The notes beneath the pieces are model-generated. The model did no database searches and was not told where the DNA came from. It saw only the letters and a list, made by a program, of their open reading frames with translations. A stretch of 56,886 nt of DNA. Origin: an uncultured Selenomonadales bacterium (lineage in GTDB: Bacteria > Bacillota > Negativicutes > Selenomonadales > Selenomonadaceae). Shown piece after piece: positions 29,705-45,062 of this stretch (its first letter is position 1; each line of letters starts with the position of its first letter). The stretch covers positions 1 to 56,886 of the forward strand of contig CAMUZU010000013.1 of NCBI GenBank assembly GCA_947165295.1, in the 5' to 3' direction. The position numbers and the translations under genes were made by a program.

Positions 29705-29812
29705 CCGGCCGTCATGGATGACGGCCGCAATCGCCTGTCGCATGACGCAGGATGCGTCATAGCAGGCGCGGCTTTCTTTGGTTACTTTCTTTCCACGCGG
29801 AAAGAAAGTAAC
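29705..29812 (-). repeat. three-hairpin intergenic element, copy A
   Basis: In the direction of the downstream DUF1537 gene, three consecutive hairpins occur: 29812-29781 (14-pair stem GTTACTTTCTTTCC/GGAAAGAAAGTAAC), 29768-29732 (outer CGCCTG/CAGGCG, inner ATGACGCA/TGCGTCAT) and 29726-29707 (GGCCGTCAT/ATGACGGCC). The gene start is 50 bases further on. Three related copies lie at 40825, 43906 and 44957. Confidence 0.85.
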
Positions 29813-29819
29813 ACACACG

Positions 29820-30629
29820 TCACAAAACGTCGGCGAAGTGCGGCCGCAACTTTTTGAAACACCACGCGCCGATAAACATCACCGCGCCCGTCAACGCCCA
29901 AAAGTAAATCGTCTGGTACTGGTGTTGCCAAAACCATTCGTTGTAAATGAAACTTTGGCGGTAACCTTCGACCAGATAATACGCGGGATTGAGCTTCAGG
30001 AAAAATTGAAACTGTTCGGGCACCATGTTTAAGTTCCAGAAAATCGGCGTGCCCCAAAAGCCGAACTGCAAAATCATGCCGACGAATTGTCCCACGTCGC
30101 GCAGAAAAACCGTCAGCGAACTTGTCAACCAACTCAAGCCCAGCACGAGGCACATCATCGCGAAGAAGTAATAAATTATCTGCAGGTTGTAAATCGACAC
30201 GCTGTAGCCGTAAATCGCGAACATTGCGAACAGCACGCCGACAAAAAAAATGTGCACGACAAGCGCGGACATGATTTTGACAATCGGCAACAGCTCCACG
30301 CGGAAAACAATTTTCTTGACGAGGAACGCGCTTTCGATAACCGAATTCGTCGAACTTTGGATGCTGTCGCTCAAGAAAAACCACGGGAACATTCCGCACA
30401 CGAGCCACAGAATAAACGGGAAGTCGTTGACAGGCATTGCTTTGAAGCCGACTTGGAAGACGAACCAGAAAATCAGCACGGTGACCGTCGGCTGTATGAA
30501 CGCCCATAAAATGCCCAGGTACGAGCCGAGATAACGCTGTCGGAAGTCGCGCTTGGTCATCTGCCACAAAAGTTTTCGGTTGGCGACGATGTTGCGAATC
30601 AGCCCGAGCAATGCGCGCAATGGTTTCAT
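29820..30629 (-). CDS. ABC-2 type permease for polysaccharide export (TagG/KpsM-like)
   Basis: The 269-residue protein has six predicted membrane helices and begins MKPLRALLGLIRNIVANRKLLWQMTKRDFRQRYLGSYLGILWAFIQPT, split over the typical cytoplasmic amphipathic segment and first helix. Such permeases export lipid-linked glycans with an ATPase of the TagH/KpsT type, but none is encoded beside it; the partner must be elsewhere. The ATG at 30629 is chosen because AAGGAG precedes it and because a promoter covers the longer frame. Confidence 0.88.
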   Translation of the reverse strand: MKPLRALLGLIRNIVANRKLLWQMTKRDFRQRYLGSYLGILWAFIQPTVTVLIFWFVFQVGFKAMPVNDFPFILWLVCGMFPWFFLSDSIQSSTNSVIESAFLVKKIVFRVELLPIVKIMSALVVHIFFVGVLFAMFAIYGYSVSIYNLQIIYYFFAMMCLVLGLSWLTSSLTVFLRDVGQFVGMILQFGFWGTPIFWNLNMVPEQFQFFLKLNPAYYLVEGYRQSFIYNEWFWQHQYQTIYFWALTGAVMFIGAWCFKKLRPHFADVL

Positions 30630-30661
30630 AAACGTTTCTCCTTGCGATTTGTTTTGCGGCA

Positions 30662-30690
30662 ATGATATAAAATCGTCGCGGCAATGTAAA
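30662..30690 (-). promoter_or_regulatory. sigma70-type promoter for the ABC-2 permease
   Basis: The minus strand reads TTTACA, a 17-base spacer and TATCAT, ending 33 bases before the chosen ATG. Confidence 0.7.
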
Positions 30691-30728
30691 CGAAAATTTT
30701 TCAAGCCGCGTCGTCGTGCCGAATTGTT

Positions 30729-30757
30729 TTGCCAACGCACGCGACAGTTGCTATAAT
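30729..30757 (+). promoter_or_regulatory. sigma70-type promoter for proS
   Basis: TTGCCA, a 17-base spacer and TATAAT, 31 bases before the proS ATG. The leader is too short for a T-box riboswitch. Confidence 0.75.
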
Positions 30758-30788
30758 GGCGGAAATTTTTTTCGAGGTGAACTTGTTA

Positions 30789-32504
30789 ATGAGAGCAACT
30801 CAACTTTACATGCCGACACTGCGCGAGTCGCCCGCAGAAGCCGAACTTGTCAGTCACAAGCTGATGTATCGCGCAGGTTTGATTCGCAAGGCTGCCGGCG
30901 GATTGTATTCGTACCTGCCGCTGGGTTGGCGCACGATGAAAAAAATCATGCAAATCATTCGCGAAGAGATGGACGCCAAGGGCGGTCAAGAACTCATGAT
31001 GCCAATCGTTCAGCCCGCCGAAATGTGGAAAGAGTCCGGACGTTGGGCGGTTTACGGCGATGAAATGATGCGCCTGAAAGACCGCCACGGACGCGAATTC
31101 GCACTCGGTCCCACGCATGAAGAGATGATAACCACGCTGATTCGCGACGAAGTCCGCTCGTATAAGCAACTGCCGTTCATGCCGTACCAAATTCAAAACA
31201 AGTACCGCGACGAAATTCGCCCGCGTTTCGGCTTGATGAGAAGTCGCGAATTCGTCATGAAAGACTTGTATTCGTTCGACCGCGACGTTGCCGGCATGAA
31301 CGTTTCTTACGACAAGATGTACGACGCTTACAGCCGAATCTTCACGCGTTGCGGCTTGAAGTTCCGCGCCGTCGAGGCGGACAACGGTGCAATCGGCGGC
31401 GGACATTCGCACGAATTCACCGTGCTTGCTCCCAGCGGCGAATCGTCAATTGCTTACTGCGAAGCCTGCAACTTTGCCGCAAGCGACGAGAAGGCCGAAC
31501 TCAAATTGATTCACACGGAAGCCGAAGAACTTCGCCCGCTTGAAAAAGTTTCCACGCCCGATTGTCACACGATTGAAGCCGTCAAAAACTTCCTCAACGT
31601 GCCGATTGAAAAGACGATTAAGGCCGTTGCCTTCATGGACGACGACGAACGCTTGATTGTCGCCTTCGTGCGCGGCGACCACGACGTCAACGAAATTAAA
31701 GTGCTCAACGCGGTTGACGGCGCGAATCATCTTTACATGGCGAGCGAACAGTTAATCGAAGCGGCGAATTCACACGCGGGTTTCATGAGCCCGATCGGTT
31801 TGAAGGACACGGCGATTGTTGTCGTCGACCAAAGTGTTATGCAGATGTCAAACGCCGTCGCCGGTGCCAACGAAGTTGACGCGCATTTTATCAACGTCAC
31901 GCCGCGCAGAGACTTTGACGCACGGAAAATTGTCGTCGCCGATATCCGCATGGTTCGCGAAGGTGACCCGTGTCCTCACTGCGGCAAACCTCTCAAGATG
32001 ACTCGCGGTATTGAAGTCGGGCAAGTCTTCACGCTCGGCAAAAAATATTCCGAAGCCTTGCACGCGACTTTCCTTGACGAAGACGGCAAAGAAAAATTCT
32101 TCGAGATGGGCTGCTACGGTATCGGCGTCGGGCGCACGATGGCGGCGGCGATTGAACAGTTCAACGACGCGGACGGCATCATCTGGCCGCGTGCGATTGC
32201 CCCGTTTGAAGTTGTCGTCGTGCCCGTCAACGCAAAGGACGACGCTCAACTTGCCTGCGCGGAAAAAATTTACGACGAACTCAAAGCGGCGGGCGTCGAC
32301 GTTTTGCTTGACGACAGGCGCGAACGTGCGGGCGTCAAGTTCAAAGACTGCGACTTGATTGGTTATCCGTTGCGCGTGACTGTCAGCCCGAAAACTTTGG
32401 CGGGTGAGCCTGTCGAAGTCAAAGTTCGTCGCAGCGGCGAATTCGTGCACTTCGACCGCAGTGAACTCGTCACGAAAATTTCTGCGCTGTTGAAAACACT
32501 GTAA
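30789..32504 (+). CDS. proS: prolyl-tRNA synthetase, bacterial type
   Basis: The 571-residue class II synthetase attaches proline to tRNA-Pro using ATP. The catalytic core has RAAGLIRKAAGGLYSYLPLG-like motif 1 (AGLIRKAAGGLYSYLPLG), motif 2 FRDEIRPRFGLMRSREF-like residues (YRDEIRPRFGLMRSREFVMKD) and motif 3 GCYGIGVGRTMAA. An editing insertion domain lies between motifs 2 and 3 (about residues 220-400), and an anticodon-binding domain follows. ATG at 30789 follows a GAGGTG site; the 20-residue longer frame overlaps the promoter. Confidence 0.96.
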   Translation: MRATQLYMPTLRESPAEAELVSHKLMYRAGLIRKAAGGLYSYLPLGWRTMKKIMQIIREEMDAKGGQELMMPIVQPAEMWKESGRWAVYGDEMMRLKDRHGREFALGPTHEEMITTLIRDEVRSYKQLPFMPYQIQNKYRDEIRPRFGLMRSREFVMKDLYSFDRDVAGMNVSYDKMYDAYSRIFTRCGLKFRAVEADNGAIGGGHSHEFTVLAPSGESSIAYCEACNFAASDEKAELKLIHTEAEELRPLEKVSTPDCHTIEAVKNFLNVPIEKTIKAVAFMDDDERLIVAFVRGDHDVNEIKVLNAVDGANHLYMASEQLIEAANSHAGFMSPIGLKDTAIVVVDQSVMQMSNAVAGANEVDAHFINVTPRRDFDARKIVVADIRMVREGDPCPHCGKPLKMTRGIEVGQVFTLGKKYSEALHATFLDEDGKEKFFEMGCYGIGVGRTMAAAIEQFNDADGIIWPRAIAPFEVVVVPVNAKDDAQLACAEKIYDELKAAGVDVLLDDRRERAGVKFKDCDLIGYPLRVTVSPKTLAGEPVEVKVRRSGEFVHFDRSELVTKISALLKTL

Positions 32505-32531
32505 CCGGTCACACTTAACGCGAAACGAAGA

Positions 32532-33246
32532 ATGTCGCCGTTGGCTTATCAAGCCGCAAAAACCACAAAAATAGTGTACGACTACGCTACTACAGACCAA
32601 GAAAAAGAAGGCCGCGAACTTGGAATAGCGACCGCCGCTAAGGTTTATGCGCCCGTGTTTGACGGTTTGGAGAGCCAACTGAAAAAAATCTCCGCCGAAA
32701 AAAAAAAACGAACAGTCCAACTTTGAAACTCAAGCTAAATTTCTCACGGAACAGTGCGCATATTACGAACGCGAGACCGCCGCTTACAAAAGAAAAATCG
32801 AGACCATTAGACGCGAACACGGCAATGAACAGGGCGTTATAGGCGTTCTTGCCGCTCTTGCTACAATTGGCGGCGCGTCAATCGGGGACGGTGCCATGCT
32901 CGGTGCAAATGCTGCGCGTGCTTTCAGTTCCACTGTTGCCGGTGCGGGTCTTTCTTGGCTTGCTTTGCCCGCCGCAGTCGTCACTTACATTCTTGAAAGT
33001 GAAATGAACGACAAACGCGAACGTTTTTGCAAGGAAGAATTTGAAAAGCAAGCTCTCGTGTGGCTGGAGAAAATTGAAAGTTGCAAAGCAGAGATTTCGG
33101 ATCTGATGAAAAGCTTGAAGTTTCTTAAACACAACAACACCTATAAAATCAAAGAACTCAAAGCTGAGGTTGACGACGCGCTTCAAGAATATTGCGGAGC
33201 CATGTCGGATTACAAAATGCTGAATTTAGTGGTGAAGCAACAATGA
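32532..33246 (+). pseudogene. coiled-coil/hydrophobic protein gene split at an A11 tract
   Basis: Frame 1 encodes MSPLAYQAAKTTKIVYDYATT up to SAEKKKRTVQL and stops. The next frame takes over at a run of 11 A (32698-32708) and continues as NEQSNFETQAKFLTEQ to the stop at 33246. With ten A the two parts join into a 237-residue protein with coiled-coil segments around a Gly/Ala-rich hydrophobic region (VIGVLAALATIGGASIG and LALPAAVVTYILES). Transcriptional slippage or phase variation at the tract could restore the product, so it may not be dead. The family is unknown. Its end overlaps the next gene by ATGA. Confidence 0.65.
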
Positions 33247-34343
33247 GCCGGCTTGACAAAATGAACGCGATTATCGCCGAACAGCGGGCAGAGCACGAAG
33301 CTTTCTGCCGCAAAGCGCAAAAAACTTCCGATCGCATTGAACGACTGATAAAATTCGCCGAAGACACGCCCGCTTACCTGCAAGCACTCAACGACGAGTT
33401 CGAGAACAAAACTTCGCTCAACGACACGGAAGTTTCGATAATGTTCTTTACCGTCGGCTTGCAAATTCTGCGTCAACATTACCTGACGAAATTTGTGGAA
33501 CGCGTCGACGACCAAACCGGCGGCAAAAGTGATCCGTTTCACGGCGGCGAATATTCGGGCAGGCAACATCAATATTACAATCCGACTTTGAACGAAATCA
33601 TAAACAATCCCGTGCCATTCGACGCGAACATCGGCGCGAACGGTGCGTTGTCGGGCGGCGGACACATGGGTCACCGCGTGACGGCGATTGGGCATGACCC
33701 GTTGCTCGGCTTGATTTTCGGGACGGCGAACATTGCAACTTCCACGCTCACGACGAAAGATTTTGTTTCCTACCACATAAAATCGGACGGCAAGCGCGAC
33801 GTTTTTGCCGAACGTGCGTCGACAGCTTTGGTCTTGCAGAAAACTGCGGGAAAACTTTTCGACGGCGCGGACGGTTTCAAAAAAGTAGGTGTTTCATTCG
33901 CCAGAGAACTTGCTCACCTTCGCTCGGACGTACACACAAAGAACAGCTTGCCGTTGCCCGTGATAAGCGTCATCGATTCAAAGTTCGCGGCGGAGCTTGC
34001 GTCTTACGGCTTGGACTTCGCCAATGTTTTGACGATCTCAGGTCAAGTTGCAATGGCGCGGCTTATTAACAGTCTCGTCGCAATGTACCACTTCTGCTTT
34101 TACGACGGCAGCATTCCGAAGGATTTGTACGCGGTCAAGACGAAAAAAATCATCTGCTACTCGAACGCAATTGCAAGTGGCGTTAATCTCGCCGAAGTCG
34201 GCTTGACAAGAAATTTCAAGTTGCTTGACATCGGCGGGATTGCGAACACGATTTTTGAAGTGGTGACAAACGTCAAGTTTATAAAGAAAGTCAAACGCGA
34301 TTTCATATTCGGCACTTACGATGCAGCATTGGCGGCTTTATAA
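33243..34343 (+). CDS. hypothetical protein, 366 aa
   Basis: I cannot assign a family. Features are an N-terminal helical, probably coiled-coil region (residues 1-100), then a conserved-looking core GHRVTAIGHDPLLGLIFGTANIATSTLTT, and a C-terminal region with moderately hydrophobic helices (FANVLTISGQVAMARLINSLVAMYHFCFYD). There is no signal peptide. It is coupled by ATGA to the split gene before it, so the two form a unit lying between proS and thiD. An accessory or defence-like role is possible, but nothing in the sequence proves it. Confidence 0.65.
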   Translation: MSRLDKMNAIIAEQRAEHEAFCRKAQKTSDRIERLIKFAEDTPAYLQALNDEFENKTSLNDTEVSIMFFTVGLQILRQHYLTKFVERVDDQTGGKSDPFHGGEYSGRQHQYYNPTLNEIINNPVPFDANIGANGALSGGGHMGHRVTAIGHDPLLGLIFGTANIATSTLTTKDFVSYHIKSDGKRDVFAERASTALVLQKTAGKLFDGADGFKKVGVSFARELAHLRSDVHTKNSLPLPVISVIDSKFAAELASYGLDFANVLTISGQVAMARLINSLVAMYHFCFYDGSIPKDLYAVKTKKIICYSNAIASGVNLAEVGLTRNFKLLDIGGIANTIFEVVTNVKFIKKVKRDFIFGTYDAALAAL

Positions 34344-34370
34344 TTGAACACAGCTTTGACAATCGCCGGA
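34344..34370 (+). repeat. remnant copy of the thiD 5' end
   Basis: Directly after the stop of the unknown gene, TTG AAC ACA GCT TTG ACA ATC... encodes MNTALTIAG, the usual ThiD start, then diverges. The functional thiD repeats TALTIAG 82 bases later in another frame, so the 5' end of thiD is partly duplicated. Confidence 0.6.
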
Positions 34371-34428
34371 CAACGTGACGTTACATCCAATTTGTGCAGG
34401 CGAAAAAATTTCAAAGGAGTGACGCAAA

Positions 34429-35229
34429 ATTTTTACGGCATTGACAATCGCGGGCTCGGACTCGTCGGGCGGCGCAGGCATTCAGGCGGACTTGAAAACT
34501 TTTCTGGCGAACGGCGTTTACGGCATGAGCGCGATAACCGCTTTGACCGCTCAAAACACTTGCGGCGTGCGAAGCGTGCTCAACTCGACGGCAGACTTTT
34601 TGGGCGAACAACTCGACGCGATTTTTGAAGACATCTTCCCCGACGCAGTGAAAATCGGCATGGTTTCTTCCGCGACGCTGATTGAAGTCATTGCCGACAA
34701 ACTCAACCGTCACTGCGCGAAAAACATTGTCGTCGACCCCGTCATGGTTGCCACGTCGGGCGCACGGCTGATTGACGCTGACGCCGTTCAATCGCTCGAA
34801 GAAAGACTTTTCCCTCTGGCGACGATAATCACGCCGAACATCCCCGAACTTGAAGTTATCGCCCGCGAAAAAATTTCGTCGCCGCGTGACATGGAACGTG
34901 CCGCGCAGAAAATTTTCGACCGCTACGGAATTGCGGTGCTTGCCAAGGGCGGTCACGGTCAAAACGACGCAAACGACTTGCTCGTTCATGCCGACGGACA
35001 AATTTGGTTTTACGGCCGACGAATCGACACGACCAACACGCACGGCACGGGTTGCACGCTCAGTTCGGCAATCGCCGCGAATCTTGCCAAGGGACGCGAC
35101 CTGAAAACTTCCGTCGAACGTGCGAAAACTTACTTGACGTGCGCGCTGTCGACGGGCTTGAATCTCGGCAACGGTTCGGGGCCACTCGACCACGGATTTA
35201 ATCTTCGCGGCGTCGACTTCATCGACTGA
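34429..35229 (+). CDS. thiD: hydroxymethylpyrimidine/phosphomethylpyrimidine kinase
   Basis: The 266-residue ribokinase-family enzyme phosphorylates HMP and HMP-phosphate in thiamine synthesis. Motifs are TALTIAGSDSSGGAGIQADL, VVDPVMVATSG, AVLAKGGHG and the anion hole NTHGTGCTLSSA. The best start is a rare ATT at 34429: it is nine bases after AGGAG and gives the normal family N-terminus. The nearest standard start, TTG at 34441, is 21 bases from that site and would trim four residues. Its last 48 codons are duplicated downstream. No other thi gene is in the window. Confidence 0.9.
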   Translation: MFTALTIAGSDSSGGAGIQADLKTFLANGVYGMSAITALTAQNTCGVRSVLNSTADFLGEQLDAIFEDIFPDAVKIGMVSSATLIEVIADKLNRHCAKNIVVDPVMVATSGARLIDADAVQSLEERLFPLATIITPNIPELEVIAREKISSPRDMERAAQKIFDRYGIAVLAKGGHGQNDANDLLVHADGQIWFYGRRIDTTNTHGTGCTLSSAIAANLAKGRDLKTSVERAKTYLTCALSTGLNLGNGSGPLDHGFNLRGVDFID

Positions 35230-35405
35230 AAAATTTTCCTCGACGGTGCGGGCAAATGTCTCGCCAAGGGACGCGACTTGAAATCCGCCGTCGAACGTGC
35301 GAAAACTTACTTGACGTGCGCGCTGTCGACGGGCTTGAATCTCGGCAACGGTTCGGGGCCACTCGACCACGGATTTAATCTTCGCGGCGTCGACTTCATC
35401 GACTG
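35086..35405 (+). repeat. 177-bp duplication of the thiD 3' end
   Basis: The end of thiD from GCCAAGGGACGCGAC (35086) to its stop recurs at 35263-35405 with only a few changes, including the stop codon. The offset of 177 bases is a multiple of three. The terminator follows the second copy only. Confidence 0.9.
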
Positions 35406-35441
35406 AAAAAATTCCTCGACCAAGCGTCGGGGATTTTTTGT
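35405..35441 (+). terminator. terminator after the duplicated thiD end
   Basis: TCCTCGAC pairs with GTCGGGGA around CAAGC, with A6 before and T6 after. Confidence 0.8.
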
Positions 35442-35485
35442 TGAAGGAATTGTTTCGGCGGCGACGAATCAATCCGCACGAACGA

Positions 35486-35514
35486 TTGACGGAAATTTTA
35501 CGTAAGTTTTATTT
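35486..35514 (+). promoter_or_regulatory. probable promoter for the GrpE-like/Hsp70-like operon
   Basis: TTGACG, a 17-base spacer and TTATTT lie about 22 bases before the ATG of the GrpE-like gene; the -10 match is moderate. Confidence 0.5.
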
Positions 35515-36382: not shown

Positions 36383-39379
36383 ATGGAAAACGTTTTGCCG
36401 AAAAATCGTCCGTCGCGCCGCGAATCCGTGCGGGTCAGCCGCCTGCAGTTCGACCACATCTTCACCGACGCCGCCGCCGCAAAGGGCGAACAAATTGCCC
36501 GCGACCTCGCCGCGCTCAAAGACGACATTGCGCCCGCCTGCGACAAAACTTTCGTCATGATGAAGAACAAGCAAGTTTGGTTCGACAGGAACAACGCTGC
36601 GCTCTTCCCGAAGTTCGACAAGTTTTCGTTGCCGAAGTTTCGCACGAGTGGTGAGCCGTCGCGGGGCTACAACGTCAACTTTGAAGGCTTTTCGTTCGTC
36701 GCAATGACCGTCACCGAATGCCAACGAAGTTTCACTACGGGCAAAGGCAATCCGTATTTGCAGAGCAACAACACCTTTCGACACTTCCCGATACGAGCGA
36801 ACGAGATTTTGACGGACGACTGTCACACGTTCGTTAGTTCAGACGGCGTCTACACATACAGCTATAATGAGAGCAACCACATGGTTAGTTGTTACGAAAA
36901 TGGCGAATACGACGGCGGCTTTTGCGGCTTCTCCGATGTCACGCTCGTGCCGATTCACAGACTGCGCGGGAAAAACGCGGCGGCAATGAGTTACTTCGAT
37001 TCGTTCTTCACGTGGATACAGCTCGGTCTCGTCCCCGAAGGTCTCAAGCCGAAGCACGAACGGCTTTTCGAGAATTTCATACGCGATTATTCCAAAATCG
37101 AAGAGTACGTGTCCTTCGACGACGCAAAGAACATTGTCTTCGACGGCGACCGCTTTAAAGACGACGTGCTTGCGGGGCGGTTCACCGAAAAAGTTTTCGA
37201 TTACGACTTCAACATTGCCGAAACGCTCGATTGCGTCATGAGCGGGCAACGCAAGTACACCGGCTCCGTCGCCGCGCTGAAACGTGAACTGCTTGACTGT
37301 GACCACAAACGCGCCGACCTTGAGCCGTACGACGAACGACTGTTGACCGACGTCAATCGCGGGCACTGGGAACTTTTCGAGAACGCGCCCGAAGGTACCG
37401 CCGAAGTTCAGTTGCCCGAAGGCGAAATGCTCGTTGCCCGACCGCCGCAGCTTGACGTTTGTCTCAACGGCATTGTCGCGATTGACTTCGGCACGAAAAG
37501 CACGATTGTCGTTTGCCGCGACGGTGAACCGCGAATGTTGCGCGTCGGCAAGGGCGACTACTCCAAAGCCCCGACACCCGCGGACTTCGAGAACCCGACG
37601 GCGATTCACCTGCGCGACGTGGAAAAGTTTTTGACGGCGTATCGTGCACGCGACGGGCGGCCGTTCACCGAATGGAATCAAGTGACCGTGTCACACCAGG
37701 CGGCAAATGCCATCTTCGCGGAAAACGTCGGCAGTTCCGTGTACAATTCGGTTTTCAGCGAACTCAAGCAGTGGGCGAAAGACGAGCAAAGTTATCCCGT
37801 GCTGAAAGACTTGCAAGGCTTCACGCAGGAGATCAAGCCGTACCTGTCGACGCAGACAATTGACGCGGGCGACTTCGATCCGATTGAACTTTACGCGTAT
37901 TACCTCGGCTTGTACATCAACAACATGCACGGGAAAATTTATTTGGACTACATCTTGTCGTACCCCGTCAACTACCGCAAAGACATTCGCGAACGCATTC
38001 GCAAAAGTTTCGAGTGCGGCTTGAAGAAATCGTTGCCGCCCGCGCTTTTGAGCGACGAAGACATCATGAAACGTTTCCGCGTGTACTTGGGCGCAAGCGA
38101 GCCCGCCGCGTATGCAATCAGCGCGCTTGAAGGTTTCGGCTTGGAACCGACCGACGACGACGAAAAAGTTGCTTACGGCGTGTTCGACTTCGGCGGCGGC
38201 ACCACGGATTTTGACTTCGGCATTGAGACCGTCCCCGAAAAACGCACGCGCAATTTCATCATCGAGCAATTCGGCTTCAACGGCGACTTGACACTCGGCG
38301 GCGAAAACATTTTGGAGTTGCTGGCTTACGAAGTGTACAAGGACAACATTGACGTCATGCGTCGCGAAAAAATTCCGTTCGCCTTGCCTGCGGACTGCGA
38401 AGTTTTTGCGGGCGCGGAAACTCTGGTGACCACGACCAAAGGCGCGGCGGCTCACATGAACACGCGCAAGTTGTCCGAAGCTCTCCGCCCGATTTGGGAG
38501 AACACCGCCGACCGCACGAAGTTGACCGAAGCGCCGCTTGACATCGTTTTGTTTTCGAGCGAGCAGAAAGACGGCGGCAATTACACCGTCGGCGTGAACT
38601 TGAAAATCGACGCGGACAAGCTCAACCGTTGCATCGAGGAGCGAATTCGCGTCGGCGTCGTGAATTTTTTCCAGTCGCTCAAAAGCGCGTTCAAAGGCCG
38701 CGAAGTTTACCCCGTGCACATTTTCCTTGCGGGCAATTCGTGTCGCTCACCCGTCGTGAAGAAGTTGTTCGACGAATTCATTGCCAACGAAGCCGCCGAC
38801 AAGTTTGTACTGCACATGCCGCTTGGCGAAGAAAATTTTGCCGCCGTCGCGAAAGTTACCGACGAAGAAAATCTTGCTGCTGACGTTCCCGACGAAATTC
38901 ACGCGCAGACTTTCGACGCCAATTTGGACAGACGGCGCACGGGCAAAACCGGCGTGGCATTCGGACTGCTCAGGTGTCGACGCGGCGGCAAGGACGTTAA
39001 AATCGTCAACAAGAACGTCGACGCGGGCGGCGAAATGATTTTCCCGTACTTTTTGGGCGACGCGGGCGCGGACGGCAACACTTTCACCGTGCAAATCGGG
39101 CGCGATGTCGGTTACGGGCAGTGGGTTTACTTCACCGTCGCCGACGAGCCCGAATTTGAAATTTATTACACGACGGCTCCGCGCTCACTGCAAAATAAAA
39201 TGCCCGTCGCGCAGGTGTCAATGGTGCATTGCGTGTTCGACGAGGACACGGCGAGCGACGACGACGACTGCGGCGTTTACGTCCGAAAAGTTTCACCGAA
39301 CGAAATTGAATACGCCGTCGGTACCGCAGAAGACTTCGCAGGTGAATTCGGCGGCAAGATTTATCGTCAAAAGCTGTGA
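36383..39379 (+). CDS. large Hsp70-like ATPase with N-terminal extension
   Basis: The product is 998 residues. An extension of about 355 residues of unknown fold precedes an actin/Hsp70-type ATPase domain: phosphate-1 GIVAIDFGTKSTIVVC, a loop with ILSYPVNYRKDIRERI, phosphate-2 YGVFDFGGGTTDFDFG, and the adenosine motif HIFLAGNSCRSPVVKKL. The normal DnaK substrate-binding domain is replaced by a shorter C-terminal region (KIVNKNVDAGGEMIF to the end). Such proteins act as ATP-driven clamps; the client is unknown. It follows the GrpE-like gene with GGAG upstream of the ATG, and a terminator closes the two-gene operon. Confidence 0.85.
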   Translation: MENVLPKNRPSRRESVRVSRLQFDHIFTDAAAAKGEQIARDLAALKDDIAPACDKTFVMMKNKQVWFDRNNAALFPKFDKFSLPKFRTSGEPSRGYNVNFEGFSFVAMTVTECQRSFTTGKGNPYLQSNNTFRHFPIRANEILTDDCHTFVSSDGVYTYSYNESNHMVSCYENGEYDGGFCGFSDVTLVPIHRLRGKNAAAMSYFDSFFTWIQLGLVPEGLKPKHERLFENFIRDYSKIEEYVSFDDAKNIVFDGDRFKDDVLAGRFTEKVFDYDFNIAETLDCVMSGQRKYTGSVAALKRELLDCDHKRADLEPYDERLLTDVNRGHWELFENAPEGTAEVQLPEGEMLVARPPQLDVCLNGIVAIDFGTKSTIVVCRDGEPRMLRVGKGDYSKAPTPADFENPTAIHLRDVEKFLTAYRARDGRPFTEWNQVTVSHQAANAIFAENVGSSVYNSVFSELKQWAKDEQSYPVLKDLQGFTQEIKPYLSTQTIDAGDFDPIELYAYYLGLYINNMHGKIYLDYILSYPVNYRKDIRERIRKSFECGLKKSLPPALLSDEDIMKRFRVYLGASEPAAYAISALEGFGLEPTDDDEKVAYGVFDFGGGTTDFDFGIETVPEKRTRNFIIEQFGFNGDLTLGGENILELLAYEVYKDNIDVMRREKIPFALPADCEVFAGAETLVTTTKGAAAHMNTRKLSEALRPIWENTADRTKLTEAPLDIVLFSSEQKDGGNYTVGVNLKIDADKLNRCIEERIRVGVVNFFQSLKSAFKGREVYPVHIFLAGNSCRSPVVKKLFDEFIANEAADKFVLHMPLGEENFAAVAKVTDEENLAADVPDEIHAQTFDANLDRRRTGKTGVAFGLLRCRRGGKDVKIVNKNVDAGGEMIFPYFLGDAGADGNTFTVQIGRDVGYGQWVYFTVADEPEFEIYYTTAPRSLQNKMPVAQVSMVHCVFDEDTASDDDDCGVYVRKVSPNEIEYAVGTAEDFAGEFGGKIYRQKL

Positions 39380-39383
39380 CTGC

Positions 39384-39422
39384 AAAAAAAAATCACCGCC
39401 CGATACGTCGAGCGGTTTTTTT
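39384..39422. terminator. bidirectional terminator after the Hsp70-like gene
   Basis: ACCGCCCGA pairs with TCGAGCGGT around a four-base loop, flanked by A9 and T7; it also serves the converging BofA gene. Confidence 0.85.
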
Positions 39423-39434
39423 GTGCGACAAACG

Positions 39435-39686
39435 TCATTTAAAGTAGTGCAGGTAAATCAAAAGCCCAATCAGTCCCGGCACGCCGAGCACGCCGACAAT
39501 CAGCGCGTGAACGAACGTAATTTTTATCGCGACAAGCCCCGTCAAGTTCACGAGGTAAAGAATTGCCGCGCCGACCAAGCTGTTCCACACAATCTTGAAC
39601 GGCAGCTCAATCATGAACTTCAAGACGAGAATTATCACGACACCGATAATCAAGCCTCCTGCAACTTTAATCAAATCAATGTCCAT
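39435..39686 (-). CDS. BofA family membrane protein
   Basis: The 83-residue protein has two or three hydrophobic helices. It matches the pattern of the pro-sigma-K processing inhibitor BofA: an internal Asn and Gly-rich helix (IVWNSLVGAAILYLVNLTG) and the C-terminal VHALIVGVLGVPGLIGLLIYL. In Bacillus BofA restrains the SpoIVFB protease during sporulation. Whether this organism sporulates cannot be told here, and BofA-like proteins also exist in non-sporulating Firmicutes. Confidence 0.8.
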   Translation of the reverse strand: MDIDLIKVAGGLIIGVVIILVLKFMIELPFKIVWNSLVGAAILYLVNLTGLVAIKITFVHALIVGVLGVPGLIGLLIYLHYFK

Positions 39687-39703
39687 AAATAAACCTCCAA
39701 AAC

Positions 39704-40795
39704 TCAGCGGACGGAAATCGTCAGCGTGTTGTAAGTGATCGACTGCAAAGTTAAATCCGTCGTCGTCAAAGCCTGCAATTCATTGAAGAGCGTCTGCGGT
39801 GAACCGCCGTATTGCACGCTGAAGACCGCTTTGCCGCCTTCGTAACTCGACAGGTTGACGTTCTTGACGCGGTTGACTTGACCGAGCGCGCTTTGCACGA
39901 GATTGACCTTGCTGAAGTCCGCCGCGTAAACGACTACCTCGACGCCTTGACGCGAAGTGTACATGCCGGTTATCTGCTCAACGAGATATTCGCCCATGAG
40001 TTGACCTGCCGCCGCCAAAGCTTTCTTCGACGCGACAGCCTGCGAATTGTCGTAAGCGGAACCGTACTTGCCGTCAGCCGCGATAATCTGTCCCGTGCGC
40101 ACGACAAACATTTTCGCTTCGACGCGGGCGCGACAAGCCTGCATGTTCGTGCGCTGGTTGCCGGGCAGCCATTGACCGGGGTCGCCGACACCTTCGCTGA
40201 ACGCTTCGCCGACAATCATAATGTCCGCGCCGAACTGTTGAGCCGCCTGCGTCATCTGCGCGGCGTTCATGTTGAGCGGATTGGCGACGTTGAGCCGAGT
40301 GCCAACTTCCGTGACGTTCGAGAATCCCGCGTTGATTAACGCCTTGACAATGGCGGTTTCGCCTGCGGGGTCGGGCACGCGATATTGAATGTGACTTTCG
40401 GGCACGTACACGGCAATTTTCGGGTTGCGCAGTTGCACGTTGATAATGCCCAGCCGCGTCAATTCGTTCATGAGTTTGGAATTCGGCTCCGTGTCAACCG
40501 TCGCATTAATCGTCACGCGCCAGCCGCCCGAAGTTTGTTCGCGGGCAACGACGCTGTAATCGGTGACGAATCCGCGTGACTGCGTGTAAATTTGGTCGCG
40601 AATCAACATTGAGTTTTGCACGAGCGTTTCCGAATCAACCAGCACGCCCAAAGTGTTTTCGACCGCCATGCGAAGTGCGTCGTTCTCCGCCTCCGAAGGC
40701 GTCATGCCCGTGCCCGTGACGGTTACGGACTTCGCAAAAGCCGTCGCCGACAAAATCAAAAGCAACGACAAAATCACTGCCGCGAATCGTTTCAT
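39704..40795 (-). CDS. secreted LPP20/FlgT-N-like protein
   Basis: The 363-residue protein has a signal peptide (MKRFAAVILSLLLILSATAFA). The mature N-terminus (VTVTGTGMTPSEAENDALRMAVENTLG) matches the LPP20/flagellar FlgT N-terminal type domain, followed by a Rossmann-like domain (NPKIAVYVPESHI to MIVGEAF) like those of CsgG-type periplasmic proteins. It is probably exported to the periplasm or outer membrane. The ATG at 40795 has GGAGG upstream, and the longer frame would run through the three-hairpin element. It lies next to a CsgG-like gene, so the two may work together. Confidence 0.75.
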   Translation of the reverse strand: MKRFAAVILSLLLILSATAFAKSVTVTGTGMTPSEAENDALRMAVENTLGVLVDSETLVQNSMLIRDQIYTQSRGFVTDYSVVAREQTSGGWRVTINATVDTEPNSKLMNELTRLGIINVQLRNPKIAVYVPESHIQYRVPDPAGETAIVKALINAGFSNVTEVGTRLNVANPLNMNAAQMTQAAQQFGADIMIVGEAFSEGVGDPGQWLPGNQRTNMQACRARVEAKMFVVRTGQIIAADGKYGSAYDNSQAVASKKALAAAGQLMGEYLVEQITGMYTSRQGVEVVVYAADFSKVNLVQSALGQVNRVKNVNLSSYEGGKAVFSVQYGGSPQTLFNELQALTTTDLTLQSITYNTLTISVR

Positions 40796-40824
40796 GATGC
40801 AACCTCCAATCGCAACGAAATTCC

Positions 40825-40926
40825 GGCCGACAGGACGTCGGCCGCCGCCCGGCGTACGACGCGTGATGCGTCGTTCGTCGGGCTGTTTTCTTTTGCTACT
40901 TTTCTTTTGCGCCAAAAGAAAAGTAG
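40825..40926 (-). repeat. three-hairpin intergenic element, copy B
   Basis: Read toward the LPP20-like gene: hairpin 40926-40896 (CTACTTTTCTTTTG/CAAAAGAAAAGTAG), hairpin 40883-40847 (GCCCG/CGGGC outer, ACGACGC/GCGTCGT inner), hairpin 40843-40825 (GGCCGAC/GTCGGCC). The ATG is 29 bases on, and the intervening CGTTGCGATTGGAGGTTGC is nearly the same as in copy D. Confidence 0.85.
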
Positions 40927-40934
40927 ATTAACCG

Positions 40935-41798
40935 TCAACTGCGCTTGACGATGTCGCCTTTGTGAATTTCGCCCGACTGCTTCTTGCAGACCGCGTAATC
41001 GGCGTTGACTTCGACGACTTTAATCTTGCCGACGTTGGTTTGCTTGACAGCGACGACTTTGCCGTTGACGACAACGGGCGCGCCTTCGCGGGCAACAATC
41101 AGCACTTCGCCGCGACGCAGACCGTCAGCCGAACCGCGGTCAATGTAAACGTCTTCGCCCGAAATTTCGGCAATGCGTGCGCGGAACGGATTGACCGTGT
41201 CAAGTTCGCGCAAGAAATGTTCGGCAGCAGACTTGCAGGCGGCGTTCAAAGCTTCGACTTGAGTCGCGCCGCTTTTCGAGCCTTCGATTGTTTTGGCGAT
41301 GATAATTTCGCCCGTGGTGTTGTCGACGAAACGAATCTCCAGCTCAACCTTGCTTTTGAACTTGTGGACGTAATTGCCGGCCGCAGTGCCCAAGTCGCCC
41401 AGCCCGAACAAGCTTGAAACTTGCGACACGGTGTTTGCGGTCGGGTTGTTGCCGACGACAGCCATTGTGAGCTTGCCGACGAGCATGTAATCCGCGCCCG
41501 CAAGTTTGTTCAACTCCGCAATTTTGTTCGGGTCGCCCGCGATGTTTTGAAAGCCTTGCTCCTTCATGATTTTTTCCAGCTGCGTGCGTTCGACGACCGT
41601 GTAATTGCCGCTTGAGTGAATGGCAACGAGCAACTGCTCCGTCATAATCTCCGCGATGCGCTGATCGCTGTAACCCGAAACGTTTTCCAACGGCATGACC
41701 GCGATTGTTTTCTTAGCCGCCTCACAAAAGTTGAGCGTACACAAAAGCACCGCCGCCACCGTCGCGACAAAAATCTTTCCGACGAATTTAACTGACAT
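40935..41798 (-). CDS. CsgG-like secreted protein
   Basis: The 287-residue protein has a signal peptide (VGKIFVATVAAVLLCTLNFCEA) and a CsgG-type domain: KKTIAVMPLENVSGYSDQRIAEIMTEQL, VVERTQLEKIMKEQGF and LAGADYMLVGKL. CsgG is the outer-membrane export channel for curli, but many relatives are simple periplasmic proteins and this one may not form a pore. A C-terminal region (VYIDRGSADGLRRGEVLIV) adds a small beta domain. The ATG at 41798 follows GGGAGG. A promoter is seen upstream. Confidence 0.8.
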   Translation of the reverse strand: MSVKFVGKIFVATVAAVLLCTLNFCEAAKKTIAVMPLENVSGYSDQRIAEIMTEQLLVAIHSSGNYTVVERTQLEKIMKEQGFQNIAGDPNKIAELNKLAGADYMLVGKLTMAVVGNNPTANTVSQVSSLFGLGDLGTAAGNYVHKFKSKVELEIRFVDNTTGEIIIAKTIEGSKSGATQVEALNAACKSAAEHFLRELDTVNPFRARIAEISGEDVYIDRGSADGLRRGEVLIVAREGAPVVVNGKVVAVKQTNVGKIKVVEVNADYAVCKKQSGEIHKGDIVKRS

Positions 41799-41826
41799 GA
41801 CAAACGCCTCCCGACAAATTTTTTTC

Positions 41827-41855
41827 AATATACCAAACGGGATTTAAAATCGCAA
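41827..41855 (-). promoter_or_regulatory. sigma70-type promoter for the CsgG-like gene
   Basis: The minus strand reads TTGCGA, a 17-base spacer and TATATT, ending 29 bases before the ATG. Confidence 0.7.
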
Positions 41856-41872
41856 TAGAATTTCCGCGCAAA

Positions 41873-41898
41873 CAAAAAATCCGACGCAAGGTCGGATG
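41873..41898 (-). terminator. terminator after the DeoR-type regulator
   Basis: The minus strand reads ATCCGAC, a CTTGC loop, GTCGGAT, then a T run; it lies just past the regulator stop. Confidence 0.8.
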
Positions 41899-41906
41899 TG
41901 TCGACT

Positions 41907-42677
41907 TCAGTCCGCCGAAATGATTTTGACGCCCAACTTTTGAGCCGCGTGCGTAAGGTCGTCGGACAACTTCGAGTCGGTGATAATGCCGCTGACTTTT
42001 TCGAGCGTCGCGAAACTGTACGTACTCTCCACGCCGATTTTGCGCGACTCGGCGATAATGTAATTCGTCTTGCACAGGTCAAGAACTTTGGCTTTGTGCA
42101 GGCCGCTTTCGGTGTTGCGCGACGTGAGCGAATTGCGTTTGATGTCCACGCCGTAGAGCCCGATAAACGCGACGTCGGGTCGGAAACTTGACATGAACTG
42201 CATGTTGAGCCCGTCGACAAAACCGTCGCGACTGCGGTTGATCTGTCCGCCCGCGAAAAATAAATTTATCTTCGGGTTGCGCGCAAGCATGACAACAACG
42301 TCAATCATGTTCGTGAGGATTTTGTACGGCGTGTCGGTTCGCTCCAAAATTTCAGCGATGGCAATGTTTATCGTCGAGATGTCCAGGAAAATCAAATCTT
42401 GCGGCTGCATGAGCTTGACGGCTGCGGCGGCGATTTTGCGCTTTGCCTCCACGTCGGAAATGCGTCGACGGTGCGCTTCGGTCATCTGAAGTTTTTCCGC
42501 AATGGTCACCGCGCCGCCGTACGTGCGTTTGAGTTTGCCGTCGAGTTCGAGCGAGCTGAGGTCTTTGCGGATTGAATCTTCCGTGACGCCGAAAATCTCC
42601 GCGAGTTCCTTGACGAGGACTTTACCGTCGCGGTTGAGCATTTCGAGAATCTTGGCTTGCCGTTCTTCCATAAACAT
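41907..42677 (-). CDS. DeoR/GlpR family transcription regulator
   Basis: The 256-residue repressor has an N-terminal winged helix-turn-helix (RQAKILEMLNRDGKVLVKEL and GVTEDSIRKDLSSLELDGKLKRTYGGA) and a C-terminal sugar-phosphate sensing domain (DLIFLDISTINIAIAEIL, LFFAGGQINRSRDGFVDG). Members typically repress sugar-use genes and are released by a phosphorylated sugar. No sugar operon is adjacent; the divergent gene belongs to methionine synthase, so its targets are probably elsewhere. The ATG at 42677 follows AAAGGTGA. Confidence 0.88.
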   Translation of the reverse strand: MFMEERQAKILEMLNRDGKVLVKELAEIFGVTEDSIRKDLSSLELDGKLKRTYGGAVTIAEKLQMTEAHRRRISDVEAKRKIAAAAVKLMQPQDLIFLDISTINIAIAEILERTDTPYKILTNMIDVVVMLARNPKINLFFAGGQINRSRDGFVDGLNMQFMSSFRPDVAFIGLYGVDIKRNSLTSRNTESGLHKAKVLDLCKTNYIIAESRKIGVESTYSFATLEKVSGIITDSKLSDDLTHAAQKLGVKIISAD

Positions 42678-42754
42678 TGTGTTCACCTTTATTGCAGTTA
42701 TTGTTATGACTTGCGCGCAGTATATCACGTTTCGGCGGCTCCGCAAAGAAGTTT

Positions 42755-42783
42755 TTGCCCGCGTGACGCTTTTGGTGTAAGAT
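42755..42783 (+). promoter_or_regulatory. sigma70-type promoter for the MetH activation-domain gene
   Basis: TTGCCC, a 17-base spacer and TAAGAT lie 27 bases before the TTG start. Confidence 0.6.
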
Positions 42784-42810
42784 GTGCGCATTCGGAAGGA
42801 GGCGAACGCG

Positions 42811-43485
42811 TTGGCGATTTACAACGCACGAATTGTTCAAGTCGACGCGGCGGAAACGAGACGTTACGCGGGACTGCGCAAGGCTCAACACTTCGGCGAA
42901 CAAAACATCCGCGACGCCTGCGCCGAAGCTCTGTTGCTGATTGACGTCGGCGGCGTGTGGGAACTTTACGATTACGACTGCGCAAATCATGTCGTGGCAA
43001 GTCAAGTGCCCTTTACAATCGCGGGCAATTCGATTATAAAACACCTCGACGGCTGCGAACGCGTCATTTGCATGGCGGCGACGGTCGGGCTTGACATTGA
43101 GCGCGAAGTTACCCGCAAGTTCGAGCGCGGCGAATATCTGTCGTCAATTCTTTTGGATGCGGCGGCGACTGCGGCAGTCGAACAGGTTGCCGACGAGATG
43201 GAAAAGCATTTCGCGTTGACGTTCGCCCGCGATGGTTTCAAGTTGCGTTGGCGGTTCAGCCCCGGTTACGGCGACTGGGCTTTGACCGAGCAAGCGAAAC
43301 TTTTCACGGCGGCGGGTGCGGAACGAATCGGCTTGACTTTGACGTCGGCGATGATGTTGGAGCCGCGCAAGTCAATCACCGCGATAATCGGGCTTGAACG
43401 CGTCACGGCAAGTCAACCGTCACAAACGTCGAAAAAATCCTGCGCGACTTGCAACCGCGTCGATTGTCCGTCGCGTAAATTTTAA
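42811..43485 (+). CDS. stand-alone methionine synthase activation-domain protein
   Basis: The 224-residue protein matches the C-terminal SAM-binding activation domain of cobalamin-dependent methionine synthase. That domain helps re-methylate oxidised B12 using SAM and a reductant. Visible motifs are RWRFSPGYGDWALTEQ and LTSAMMLEPRKSITAIIGL, ending in CATCNRVDCPSRKF with three cysteines. In many anaerobic Firmicutes this domain is a separate gene, as here. The TTG start lies eight bases after AAGGAGG. Its last 54 codons or so are copied twice more downstream. Confidence 0.88.
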   Translation: MAIYNARIVQVDAAETRRYAGLRKAQHFGEQNIRDACAEALLLIDVGGVWELYDYDCANHVVASQVPFTIAGNSIIKHLDGCERVICMAATVGLDIEREVTRKFERGEYLSSILLDAAATAAVEQVADEMEKHFALTFARDGFKLRWRFSPGYGDWALTEQAKLFTAAGAERIGLTLTSAMMLEPRKSITAIIGLERVTASQPSQTSKKSCATCNRVDCPSRKF

Positions 43486-43899
43486 TTGCGCTTGACGGTT
43501 GCGGCGTGTTGACTGCGAATCGGCTTGACTTTGACGTCGGCGATGATGTTGGAGCCGCGCAAGTCAATCACCGCGATAATCGGGCTTGAACGCGTCACGG
43601 CAAGTCAACCGTCACAAACGTCGAAAAAATCCTGCGCGACTTGCAACCGCGTCGATTGTCCGTCGCGTAAATTTTAATTGCGCTTGACGGTTGCGGCGTG
43701 TTGACTGCGAATCGGCTTGACTTTGACGTCGGCGATGATGTTGGAGCCGCGCAAGTCAATCACGGCGATAATCGGGCTTGAACGCGTCACGGCAAGTCAA
43801 TCGTCGCAAGCGTCAAAAAAATTCTGCGCGAACTGTGACTGCGTCGATTGTCCGTCGCGTAAATTTTAATTGCGCTTGACGATTGCGACTGTTGTTTGC
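43324..43899 (+). repeat. 192-bp tandem repeat, three copies of a gene 3' end
   Basis: Copies begin at 43324 (inside the MetH activation-domain gene), 43516 and 43708. Each carries the gene end including its stop codon plus about 30 bases of spacer. Copies 1 and 2 are almost identical and copy 3 has drifted slightly. Together with copy C of the three-hairpin element this fills the 556 bases without a gene between 43486 and 44041. Confidence 0.92.
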
Positions 43900-43905
43900 G
43901 TGAAT

Positions 43906-44008
43906 CTACTTTCTTTGACCGAGCAAAGAAAGTAGCAAAGAAACTCGCGCCTGCTGTGATACGTCCTGTATCACGCGCAGGCGACGCGACCGTCGTCCGT
44001 GACGGCCG
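43906..44008 (+). repeat. three-hairpin intergenic element, copy C
   Basis: Hairpin 43906-43935 (CTACTTTCTTTG/CAAAGAAAGTAG), hairpin 43948-43983 (CGCCTGC/GCAGGCG outer, TGATAC/GTATCA inner), and hairpin about 43990-44005 (CCGTC/GACGG, the weakest of the set). The map start follows 33 bases later. Confidence 0.8.
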
Positions 44009-44041
44009 GTTTACCTTCGCTTTCACGTCGAGGATTTAATC

Positions 44042-44947
44042 ATGCTGAAGTTTTTCAAGGAGATGTTGCGAAACATGAAACGAAACGACCCGTGTTGGTG
44101 CGGCAGCGGCAAGAAGTACAAAAAATGTCACGAGGACTTCGACGCACGAATTGACGAAATTAAATTTCTCAAGGCGCGCAACCAGGTTCGTCCTCCGAAA
44201 CGGCTTATCAACAACGCGGCGGACATTGAAGGCATCAAGCGGGCGGCGGTCATTAACACCGGTGCGCTTGACTTGATGAACGAGCTTGTCCGCGAAGGCG
44301 TCGACACGTTGACGTTAAACGACGCGGCGCACGAATTCATAACGAGTCACGGCGGACATCCGAGTTGTCTTGGCTTCGAGGGCTTCCCGAAAAGCATTTG
44401 CATTTCCGTCAACAACGTCGTGTGCCACGGCATTCCGTCGCGCAAAGAAATTCTCAAGTCGGGCGACATCTTGAACATTGACATTACCACGGACTTGGAC
44501 GGCTACTTTGCGGACGCGTCGCGCATGTACACCGTCGGCGAAGTTTCGGCGGAGGCTCAACGCTTGATTGACACGACGCGGGAGATTATGGAAGTTGGCA
44601 TTGCTGCTGCCAAACCTTGGCATTTCGTCGGCGACATTGGCGCGGCCTGCGGACAGCTTGCACACGCGAACGGTTATTCGGTCGTCACGGACTTGGGCGG
44701 CCACGGCGTCGGCAAGAAGTTTCACCTGGAGCCGTTCGTCAGCCACGATTGTCGCGCCGAAACGGGCATGTTGCTTGTCCCCGGCATTGTGTTGACCGTC
44801 GAGCCGATGATTAACGCGGGCAGGCGCGAAGTCACCGTTGACGACAAAGACAACTGGACTGTTCGCACGGCGGACGGCTCACTTTCCGCGCAGTGGGAGA
44901 AGACGATTTTAATCACCGACACCGGCGCGGAAGTTCTCGCAAGCTGA
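44042..44947 (+). CDS. map: methionine aminopeptidase type I with SEC-C motif
   Basis: The 301-residue enzyme removes the initiator methionine from new proteins. A SEC-C zinc motif (DPCWCGSGKKYKKCH) at residues about 17-31 probably targets it to the ribosome. The pita-bread catalytic domain shows the metal ligands in LNIDITTDLDGYFADASR (two Asp), GHGVGKKFH (His), TVEPMI and the final Glu near SAQWEKTILIT. An apparent internal start before MKRNDPCW is possible. A three-hairpin element precedes it. Confidence 0.94.
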   Translation: MLKFFKEMLRNMKRNDPCWCGSGKKYKKCHEDFDARIDEIKFLKARNQVRPPKRLINNAADIEGIKRAAVINTGALDLMNELVREGVDTLTLNDAAHEFITSHGGHPSCLGFEGFPKSICISVNNVVCHGIPSRKEILKSGDILNIDITTDLDGYFADASRMYTVGEVSAEAQRLIDTTREIMEVGIAAAKPWHFVGDIGAACGQLAHANGYSVVTDLGGHGVGKKFHLEPFVSHDCRAETGMLLVPGIVLTVEPMINAGRREVTVDDKDNWTVRTADGSLSAQWEKTILITDTGAEVLAS

Positions 44948-44956
44948 GTGTCCGGT

Positions 44957-45062
44957 GTTACTTTTCTTTGGCAGCAAAGAAAAGTAACCAAAAGAAACTG
45001 CGCCCGCTACGATACATCCTGTATCGTGCGACGGGCGAAAGCGGCCGTCATCCATGACGGCC
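44957..45062 (+). repeat. three-hairpin intergenic element, copy D
   Basis: Hairpin 44957-44988 (GTTACTTTTCTTTG/CAAAGAAAAGTAAC), hairpin 45001-45037 (CGCCCG/CGGGCG outer, ACGATACA/TGTATCGT inner), hairpin 45043-45062 (GGCCGTCAT/ATGACGGCC with the loop CC). The queC ATG is 29 bases on; GTTGCGATTGGAGGT between them is shared with copy B. Confidence 0.88.

Follow-up and report, generated by a model that had tools for sequence, protein, structure and literature searches.

What are the four structured elements that stand directly ahead of start codons in a 56,886-nt stretch of DNA from an uncultured Selenomonadales bacterium (contig CAMUZU010000013.1 of assembly GCA_947165295.1; hereafter the window)? 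A preliminary description of this DNA had reported four three-hairpin copies, all oriented alike relative to the downstream gene, and had offered three options: a mobile cassette of the 5' untranslated region (5'-UTR), a structured RNA regulator, or an element resembling repetitive extragenic palindromic (REP) sequences or miniature inverted-repeat transposable elements (MITEs). Of these, the last is retained here, while orientation and stop-codon adjacency speak against the first two. The element is probably a non-autonomous, dispersed REP/MITE-like repeat with a triplex-pseudoknot core, which, judged from sequence, appears to have been selected to fold as single-stranded DNA.

The window holds four elements of about 110 nt, each with three hairpins, as the preliminary description had proposed. 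A covariance model (R1) built from 30 copies of the window's own genome (G000) matched all four with scores of 78–133 bits; the remaining window matches were weak (at most 25.6 bits) and all came from these hairpins read on the other strand. Folding energies of the four copies gave z-scores of −5.8 to −7.9 relative to dinucleotide shuffles, and for each copy none of 200 shuffles was equal. The parts are listed below with the evidence for each in brackets, where S1 is the first stem, S2 the pairing of its loop with the 3' flank, and class II refers to the published triplex rules given further on.

29701..29812, minus strand: copy A, whole element (R1, 130.0 bits); the upstream ABC2_membrane gene stops 9 nt short of the core's TAC
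29772..29779, minus strand: predicted third strand of copy A, AAAGAAAG (fold; class II rules)
40819..40927, minus strand: copy B, whole element (R1, 78.3 bits), 9 nt past the stop codon of a CsgG/LpoB-like gene; the matched site in the relative G016 is without the element
40886..40894, minus strand: predicted third strand of copy B, AAAAGAAAA (fold; class II rules)
43905..44013, plus strand: copy C, whole element (R1, 95.7 bits); the Peptidase_M24/SEC-C gene downstream is read as map; the matched site in G016 is without the element
43937..43943, plus strand: predicted third strand of copy C, AAAGAAA (fold; class II rules)
43944..43947, plus strand: S2 side CTCG of copy C, directly 3' of AAAGAAA, pairing with CGAG in the loop (43920..43923)
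44957..45068, plus strand: copy D, whole element (R1, 133.3 bits), between map and queC
44957..44988, plus strand: stem S1 of copy D, GTTAC + TTTTCTTT, loop GGCAGC, AAAGAAAA + GTAAC (fold; covariation)
44971..44974, plus strand: 5' side of S2 in copy D, GCAG, inside the S1 loop, with its partner at 44998..45001 (covariation over copies and taxa)
44990..44997, plus strand: predicted third strand of copy D, AAAAGAAA, the mirror of the purine arm and the parallel complement of the pyrimidine arm, preceded by a single C after GTAAC
44998..45001, plus strand: 3' side of S2 in copy D, CTGC, directly 3' of the third strand (covariation over copies and taxa)
45001..45037, plus strand: hairpin 2 of copy D (fold; two-sided change in 13 of 16 pairs)
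45042..45063, plus strand: hairpin 3 of copy D, of the GGCCGTCAT/ATGACGGCC type (fold; two-sided change in 6 of 9 pairs)

The base of the first stem is GTTAC/GTAAC in most copies and CTAC/GTAG in some. Start codons follow about 29–48 nt beyond the copies (A 29656, B 40795, C 44042, D 45092; by eye) and belong to unrelated genes (a DUF1537 kinase, an LPP20-like protein, map and queC), both as first described. At their other end, copies A, B and D begin 9–11 nt past the stop codon of the upstream gene, a feature that the preliminary description had not mentioned. The reported likeness of copies B and D through the Shine-Dalgarno site is borne out by a common tail past hairpin 3, CGTTGCGATTGGAGGT (40795–40819; 45063–45092), which includes that site. 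Some other copies have related tails, and the element may carry its own ribosome site.

Searching the own genome with the covariance model, as had been suggested, revealed at least 150 copies in this 2.49-Mb draft of 110 contigs (80% complete). Each of the 150 candidates that were scored gave a match, the weakest with an E-value of 4.6e-18, and the count is a floor because these 150 were scored among 2600 first-look candidates. Across 72 distinct copies from the stretches searched, 29 of 38 stem pairs showed two-sided changes, in line with the original observation that both sides of the stems change together. Two-sided cells numbered 368, compared with 96.2 in shuffles (none of 500 reached the observed value), in an alignment that was fitted to the covariance model and hence leans towards structure. 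One-sided cells numbered 11 and unpaired cells 42, and 98.4% of stem cells pair; shifting the partner by 1–3 columns left only 13 to 34 two-sided cells. Selection on structure, which the preliminary description had suspected, is thus supported by covariation. The features of this structure agree with RNA no better than with DNA: the third strand obeys a mirror rule, described below, and no clear G.U excess exists outside one column pair. Mismatches in the three stems comprise 69 G.T and 10 A.C, but 56 of the G.T mismatches fall into that single column pair, and without it the counts are 13 and 10.

Perfect hairpins can also arise neutrally, because template switching corrects quasi-palindromes and so keeps hairpins perfect. 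An account of the element as a set of neutral palindromes, maintained by this process without selection, would be in keeping with the excess of two-sided over one-sided cells (368 versus 11) and with the rarity of G.T intermediates. However, template switching yields reverse complements and cannot make a mirror-type third strand that follows the arm, and it leaves the spread of the element over phyla unexplained. We therefore consider this account improbable.

That third strand is a second purine run, which follows hairpin 1 in all four window copies, mirrors its purine arm and had gone unnoticed in the preliminary description. The run is antiparallel to the purine arm, a geometry predicted to produce a purine-motif (class II) intrastrand triplex, and the G of the third strand sits opposite a G-C pair, as in the purine motif of DNA. 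Arm and run change together: T3-C-T3 occurs with A3-G-A3, T4-C-T3 with A4-G-A3, T3-C-T4 with A3-G-A4, and T4-C-T4 with A4-G-A4. Among hairpins that have a third strand, the mirror rule is kept in 68 of 73 cases in the own genome, in 34 of 41 in congeners and in 18 of 20 in other taxa, the last figure leaving out copies found with a fixed pattern. A second count for other taxa (128 of 138) is for the most part circular, since the pattern that located 109 of the copies already fixes the third strand. The first three counts set aside hairpins without a third strand (75 of 148 rows in the own genome, 40 of 81 in congeners and 84 of 104 in other taxa), which by eye are mostly the opposite strand of the same hairpins, a few being real copies that lack the strand. 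In 30 genomes chosen as carriers, the T3-C-T4 arm was accompanied by the mirror run at 96 places and by a non-mirror run at none; the 96 places are spread over 8 genomes, with 27 in G000 and 36 in the congener G220.

The published class II rules for intrastrand triplexes (ITxF definition; Holder et al. 2015, PMC4666352) call for a pyrimidine stem, a loop of 1–6, a purine stem, a second loop of 1–6 and an antiparallel third stem, with stems of 6–15 and one mismatch allowed from 7 up. All four window copies conform to them with stems of 8–10 and one mismatch, whereas only 2 of 200 random 60-mers from the window do so at a stem of at least 8.

The loop of S1 provides a second constraint that likewise goes beyond the preliminary description: it is complementary to the bases directly after the third strand, which would lock the fold as a pseudoknot. 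The corresponding strings of other taxa co-vary, pairing GCTTCGCC with GGCGA, GCACGCGC with GCGCG, GTTTGGGC with GCCCA and GCTGGTGC with GCACC. For 107 distinct combinations with loops of at least 5, taken over all taxa, the mean loop/flank helix is 3.46 bp, compared with 2.00 bp when shuffled (maximum 2.38 in 5000), although the shuffles ignore relatedness, which counts against this comparison. Helices of at least 4 bp occur in 61 of the 107 combinations versus 11.0 in shuffles, and an earlier, smaller set agrees. Taken together, a mirror third strand that changes with its arm and a loop pairing that covaries constitute evolutionary evidence for selection on a three-stranded fold.

Triplex repeats of the BoxC kind were recognised in bacteria decades ago. 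Holder et al. (PMC4666352) describe class II intrastrand triplex repeats, chiefly the G/C-rich TM_ECO (identical to BoxC and PIT), with 3610 copies in 262 proteobacterial genomes. According to the same paper, these copies are intergenic, show no strand bias and vary between relatives; no accompanying mobile element, no mover and no stable triplex formation in cells had been found for repeats of this kind. The element described here agrees with them in its class II layout, in which a loop joins the pyrimidine arm to the purine arm and a second loop leads to the third purine arm. It is likewise dispersed, intergenic, without significant strand bias and variable between relatives, and no mobile element was found with it. 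In contrast, its core is A/T-rich, while the TM_ECO consensus is G/C-rich (CCCTCNCCC..GGGNGAGGG..GGGNGAGGG), and a further Watson-Crick stem lies beneath its triplex; its loop pairs with the 3' flank and, in this genome, two more hairpins are attached; the word 'pseudoknot' is absent from the main text of the BoxC paper. The present family thus shares the geometry and habits of TM_ECO as published there, but not its sequence, and differs in the extra stem, the pseudoknot and the added hairpins.

Membership in TM_ECO itself was rejected: its consensus, CCCTCNCCCN3-6GGGNGAGGGN3GGGNGAGGG, has no match in the window and none in G000. The consensus does occur in two of ten genomes tested that carry the A/T-rich core, at 16 places in G203 (Desulfobacterales) and at 7 in G225 (Methylomonas). 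A known Rfam family was rejected as well, since Rfam 15 gave no gathering match in the window and only sub-threshold matches at copy D. Sequence-word and topic searches of the open-access literature found no paper on the present core, which may be listed in the ITxF database without comment. The element looks like a hitherto unrecognised relative of the triplex repeats rather than a gene switch.

Placement relative to genes bears directly on the latter alternative. We called genes with our own hexamer script, not a standard caller, so that gene starts are less certain. The strict pattern matched 73 own-genome copies (of at least 150) on the stretches searched, and 64 of them were usable, four having been dropped because they lie inside a gene call and the rest of the nine for want of a neighbour on the stretch. 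A stop codon is abutted (within about 20 nt or overlapping) by 46 of the 64 and a start codon by 7, so the position directly before start codons, proposed as the rule for the element, holds for a minority. Among the stop-abutting copies, 20 do so by their 5' end only (sense), 23 by their 3' end only (antisense) and 3 by both, and the sense-only and antisense-only counts reveal no significant bias (p = 0.76). Both neighbours run in the direction of the element (++) at 22 copies and against it (−−) at 16, and they are convergent at 21 and divergent at 5. The upstream gene counts as having the same orientation in 43 of 64 cases (p = 0.008), but this apparent bias arises because convergent sites are scored as 'same'; without them the comparison is 22 versus 16. 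The copies thus keep to the 3' ends of genes, in both orientations, and do not form a start-codon cassette.

A cis-regulatory RNA, that is, a riboswitch or other 5'-UTR regulator of the downstream gene, had been suggested by the stable, covarying structure, by the position of the four window copies ahead of start codons and by the likeness of B and D through the Shine-Dalgarno site. The common orientation to the downstream gene holds for the four window copies but fails genome-wide, where it is found in 27 of 64. Together with the few copies that abut a start codon, the unrelated downstream genes, the missing Rfam match and the absence of the element at matched sites of a relative, this renders such a regulator extremely improbable; the orientation counts largely refute it. 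The preliminary description had held that random orientation to genes would speak against its proposal, and orientation is indeed largely random here and, with a possible lean to sense described below, in other taxa.

To judge mobility, we looked for the flanks of the 73 own copies in 0.67 Mb of sequence from the relative G016, at flank identities of 75–88%. Some flank match was obtained for 46 of the 73 copies, and in 15 cases the two flanks turned up at one place. None of these 15 matched sites has the element; often almost no intergenic DNA is present there, and a rescan of the gaps gave no cores. The element therefore moves. The map locus offers a second view. A small glutaredoxin-like gene follows map at 12 of 29 relative loci (with a Pfam match for the G016 copy); by eye, 10 of the 12 have no element between the two genes, and the other two (G015 and G199) have a differently built copy there. 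In the window (44947–45092), the glutaredoxin-like gene is missing after map and copy D stands in its place. Differently built core copies lie directly after map at the loci L250, L229 and L230 of other congeners (by eye). The different build of these copies indicates that the end of the map gene has received elements more than once.

Many copies, positions at gene 3' ends and presence or absence between relatives are also habits of REP sequences. Like the REP/BIME/REPIN group of the GTAG type, the present element combines these habits with hairpins. In that group, which is linked to RAYT, a GTAG tag ends a palindrome of 20–40 bp. The present element is longer, about 110 nt, and three-part, with a triplex core; some of its copies have CTAC/GTAG at the stem base, most GTTAC/GTAAC. 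It resembles MITEs in being short, non-coding and present or absent at matched sites, and inverted pairs occur in Methylomonas, Burkholderia seminalis and Pasteurella multocida; unlike MITEs, the single copies here are without terminal inverted repeats.

The core is not confined to the Selenomonadales. In a set of 84,980 named species genomes, a pattern for one arm type located it on at least 103 stretches, all 103 of which made loci. By their record titles, these carriers cover Proteobacteria, Desulfobacterales, Nitrospirae, Lentisphaerae, Clostridia, Bacteroidetes and Hydrogenedentota and thus several phyla; they include Stenotrophomonas, Xanthomonas, Stutzerimonas, Burkholderia, Paraburkholderia, Cupriavidus, Aggregatibacter, Actinobacillus, Methylomonas, Desulfuromonadales, Selenomonas ruminantium, Quinella and many metagenome bins. 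A relaxed pattern matched all 29 genomes chosen as carriers, with no match for the reversed-pattern control (rows read by eye). The distribution is patchy: in a sample of 149 genomes from across the window's phylum, only the own genome matched the strict pattern, model counts ranged from 0 to 100 among 18 congeners (up to 122 candidates scored), and of 12 class-mates from other genera one had model matches. Six element places of G188, a member of the window's genus, agree to within a few bases with places of G220, from which the genus appears to include Quinella sp. 2Q5. Plasmid records of Burkholderia, Paraburkholderia and Pasteurella contain the core (17 records), while phage records and Escherichia coli genomes gave no core matches.

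Some carriers hold more complex arrangements. Inverted core pairs 0.3–1.4 kb apart are found in Methylomonas, Burkholderia seminalis and Pasteurella multocida. One such pair in Methylomonas flanks an open reading frame (ORF) of the DUF5677 family (L315 1502–2949), and others occur in L299 and L323; inverted pairs around ORFs are possible cargo units. In Burkholderia seminalis, two inverted cores lie within long inverted repeats that form a palindrome of about 0.8 kb (L121 1000–1800; by eye). Tandem copies with 213-bp spacing occur too (C46; L007 1497–2034, three copies). One 4.6-kb contig catalogued in IMG/VR has the core (L090 324–365).

Does the selected structure act as RNA or as DNA? The most probable alternative is an RNA-level element of the 3' untranslated region (3'-UTR). 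After transcription, its core would form an H-type pseudoknot whose A-rich strand occupies the S1 minor groove, and the hairpins would protect or define mRNA 3' ends. H-type pseudoknots usually have a first stem shorter than the 13–14 bp of S1 here. H-type RNA pseudoknots with a triplex, of which NAD+-II is an example, share the order of parts (S1, the S2 half in the loop, an A-rich strand along S1, the S2 partner), and a minor-groove A-strand triplex within a pseudoknot is an RNA architecture already known from NAD+-II. The covarying loop pairing would suit it, as would the 14 of 22 own ++ copies whose start lies no more than about 20 nt from the sense stop codon or that overlap this codon.

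Several further results weigh against a DNA-level reading. One T.G pair in hairpin 2, found in 56 of 72 copies, would suit RNA. In other taxa, where 84 of 109 copies were usable, ++ exceeds −− (36 versus 23, p = 0.12; 19 convergent, 6 divergent), so that a sense lean is possible there; the first 80 loci alone gave 24 and 22. Ten of these copies begin exactly 2 nt past a sense stop codon and one begins 1 nt past; they come from Lentisphaerae, clostridial and Firmicutes records, several from one bin, and could mean an RNA role in those taxa. Loop pairing does not extend to all combinations: 24 of 65 combinations with loops of at least 6 pair by at most 2 bp (fixed-pattern set), and 28 short-loop combinations are without pairing excess (1.75 versus 1.56 shuffled), although the latter, many from clostridial records, still keep the third strand. 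Copies B and C give class II matches on their opposite strands as well, albeit weaker ones (stems 8 and 7, one mismatch).

Against a 3'-UTR element stand the antisense placements in the own genome, which are as frequent as the sense ones, and the convergent copies away from a sense stop codon, in 10 of 12 of which a sense terminator already precedes the element. The mirror rule is base-specific and matches G to a G-C pair, as in the purine motif of DNA and unlike in the H-type pseudoknots, and there is no fixed gene orientation. Purine-motif triplexes cannot form in RNA, according to Holder et al. (PMC4666352). This, the mixed orientation and the lack of any clear G.U tolerance favour folded single-stranded DNA, and we regard the RNA-level account as possible but rather unlikely.

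The search for a moving enzyme, in which none emerged, also counts against a mobile element, as does the observation, by eye, of a clear short duplication (6 bp) at only 1 of the 15 insertions. The natural candidates would be a RAYT (Y1) transposase acting on REP/REPIN sequences, or an integron integrase acting on attC-like sites. Copy number, intergenic placement at gene 3' ends, hairpins that resemble REPs and the CTAC/GTAG base of some stems would accord with such a mover. However, a search for the Y1 transposase family PF01797 gave no match in the own genome, which is 80% complete, or in the carriers G006, G010, G015, G016, G201, G204, G210, G220 and G224; overall, 12 of 21 genomes were unmatched and 9 matched, 8 of them over the cut-off. 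A RAYT or IS200 mobiliser was rejected on these grounds. The integron integrase TIGR02249 exceeded its cut-off in 1 of 13 genomes, not G000, and was rejected too; its weak matches in 10 of the 13 occur likewise in all 14 controls and are general recombinase matches. Either mover is disfavoured, and we rate this explanation as very improbable.

For a repeat selected as single-stranded DNA, the following mechanism seems likely. The core runs from the pyrimidine arm through the loop, the purine arm and the antiparallel third purine strand to the loop-pairing segment, is A/T-rich, and is followed in this genome by two G/C-rich hairpins. Replication or transfer would expose single-stranded DNA, allowing the triplex-pseudoknot to fold. 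We infer that this folded form is what is selected and that a putative enzyme would recognise it, whereupon the element would be copied or inserted. The element would spread as new copies enter intergenic DNA in either orientation, for the most part next to stop codons, and insertions would survive there because they are least harmful. Neighbouring genes presumably for the most part just tolerate the element in their 3' flanks, although it may shape the ends of mRNAs there as a side effect. A bolder and tentative extension, which we put forward as a possibility short of an even chance, is that such elements are pan-bacterial mobile DNA modules whose signal is a single-stranded triplex locked by a pseudoknot, with a putative enzyme placing copies beside stop codons and each lineage adding hairpins of its own.

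Three other features of the window were observed alongside the elements. Three 192-nt tandem repeats, 90–100% alike, lie ahead of copy C and cover an ORF end (43309–43884). A CRISPR-like array with nine repeats, 73–77-nt spacing and differing sequence between them occupies 46493–47134 and is without an Rfam gathering match. A very long ORF of 1738 aa on the minus strand (51563–56779) has several 75-nt repeats near its start.

The first hairpin core appears to be built for a three-stranded knot, and it is present in many distant bacteria as well. The co-change of arm and third-strand lengths across distant taxa, together with compensatory loop pairing, supplies evolutionary evidence for a selected three-stranded fold. 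The old question of whether triplexes of this kind have a role in cells, and of what mobilises them, thereby becomes testable: congeners with many copies and congeners with none provide the comparison for finding the mover, and mutation of a single strand provides the test of the fold.

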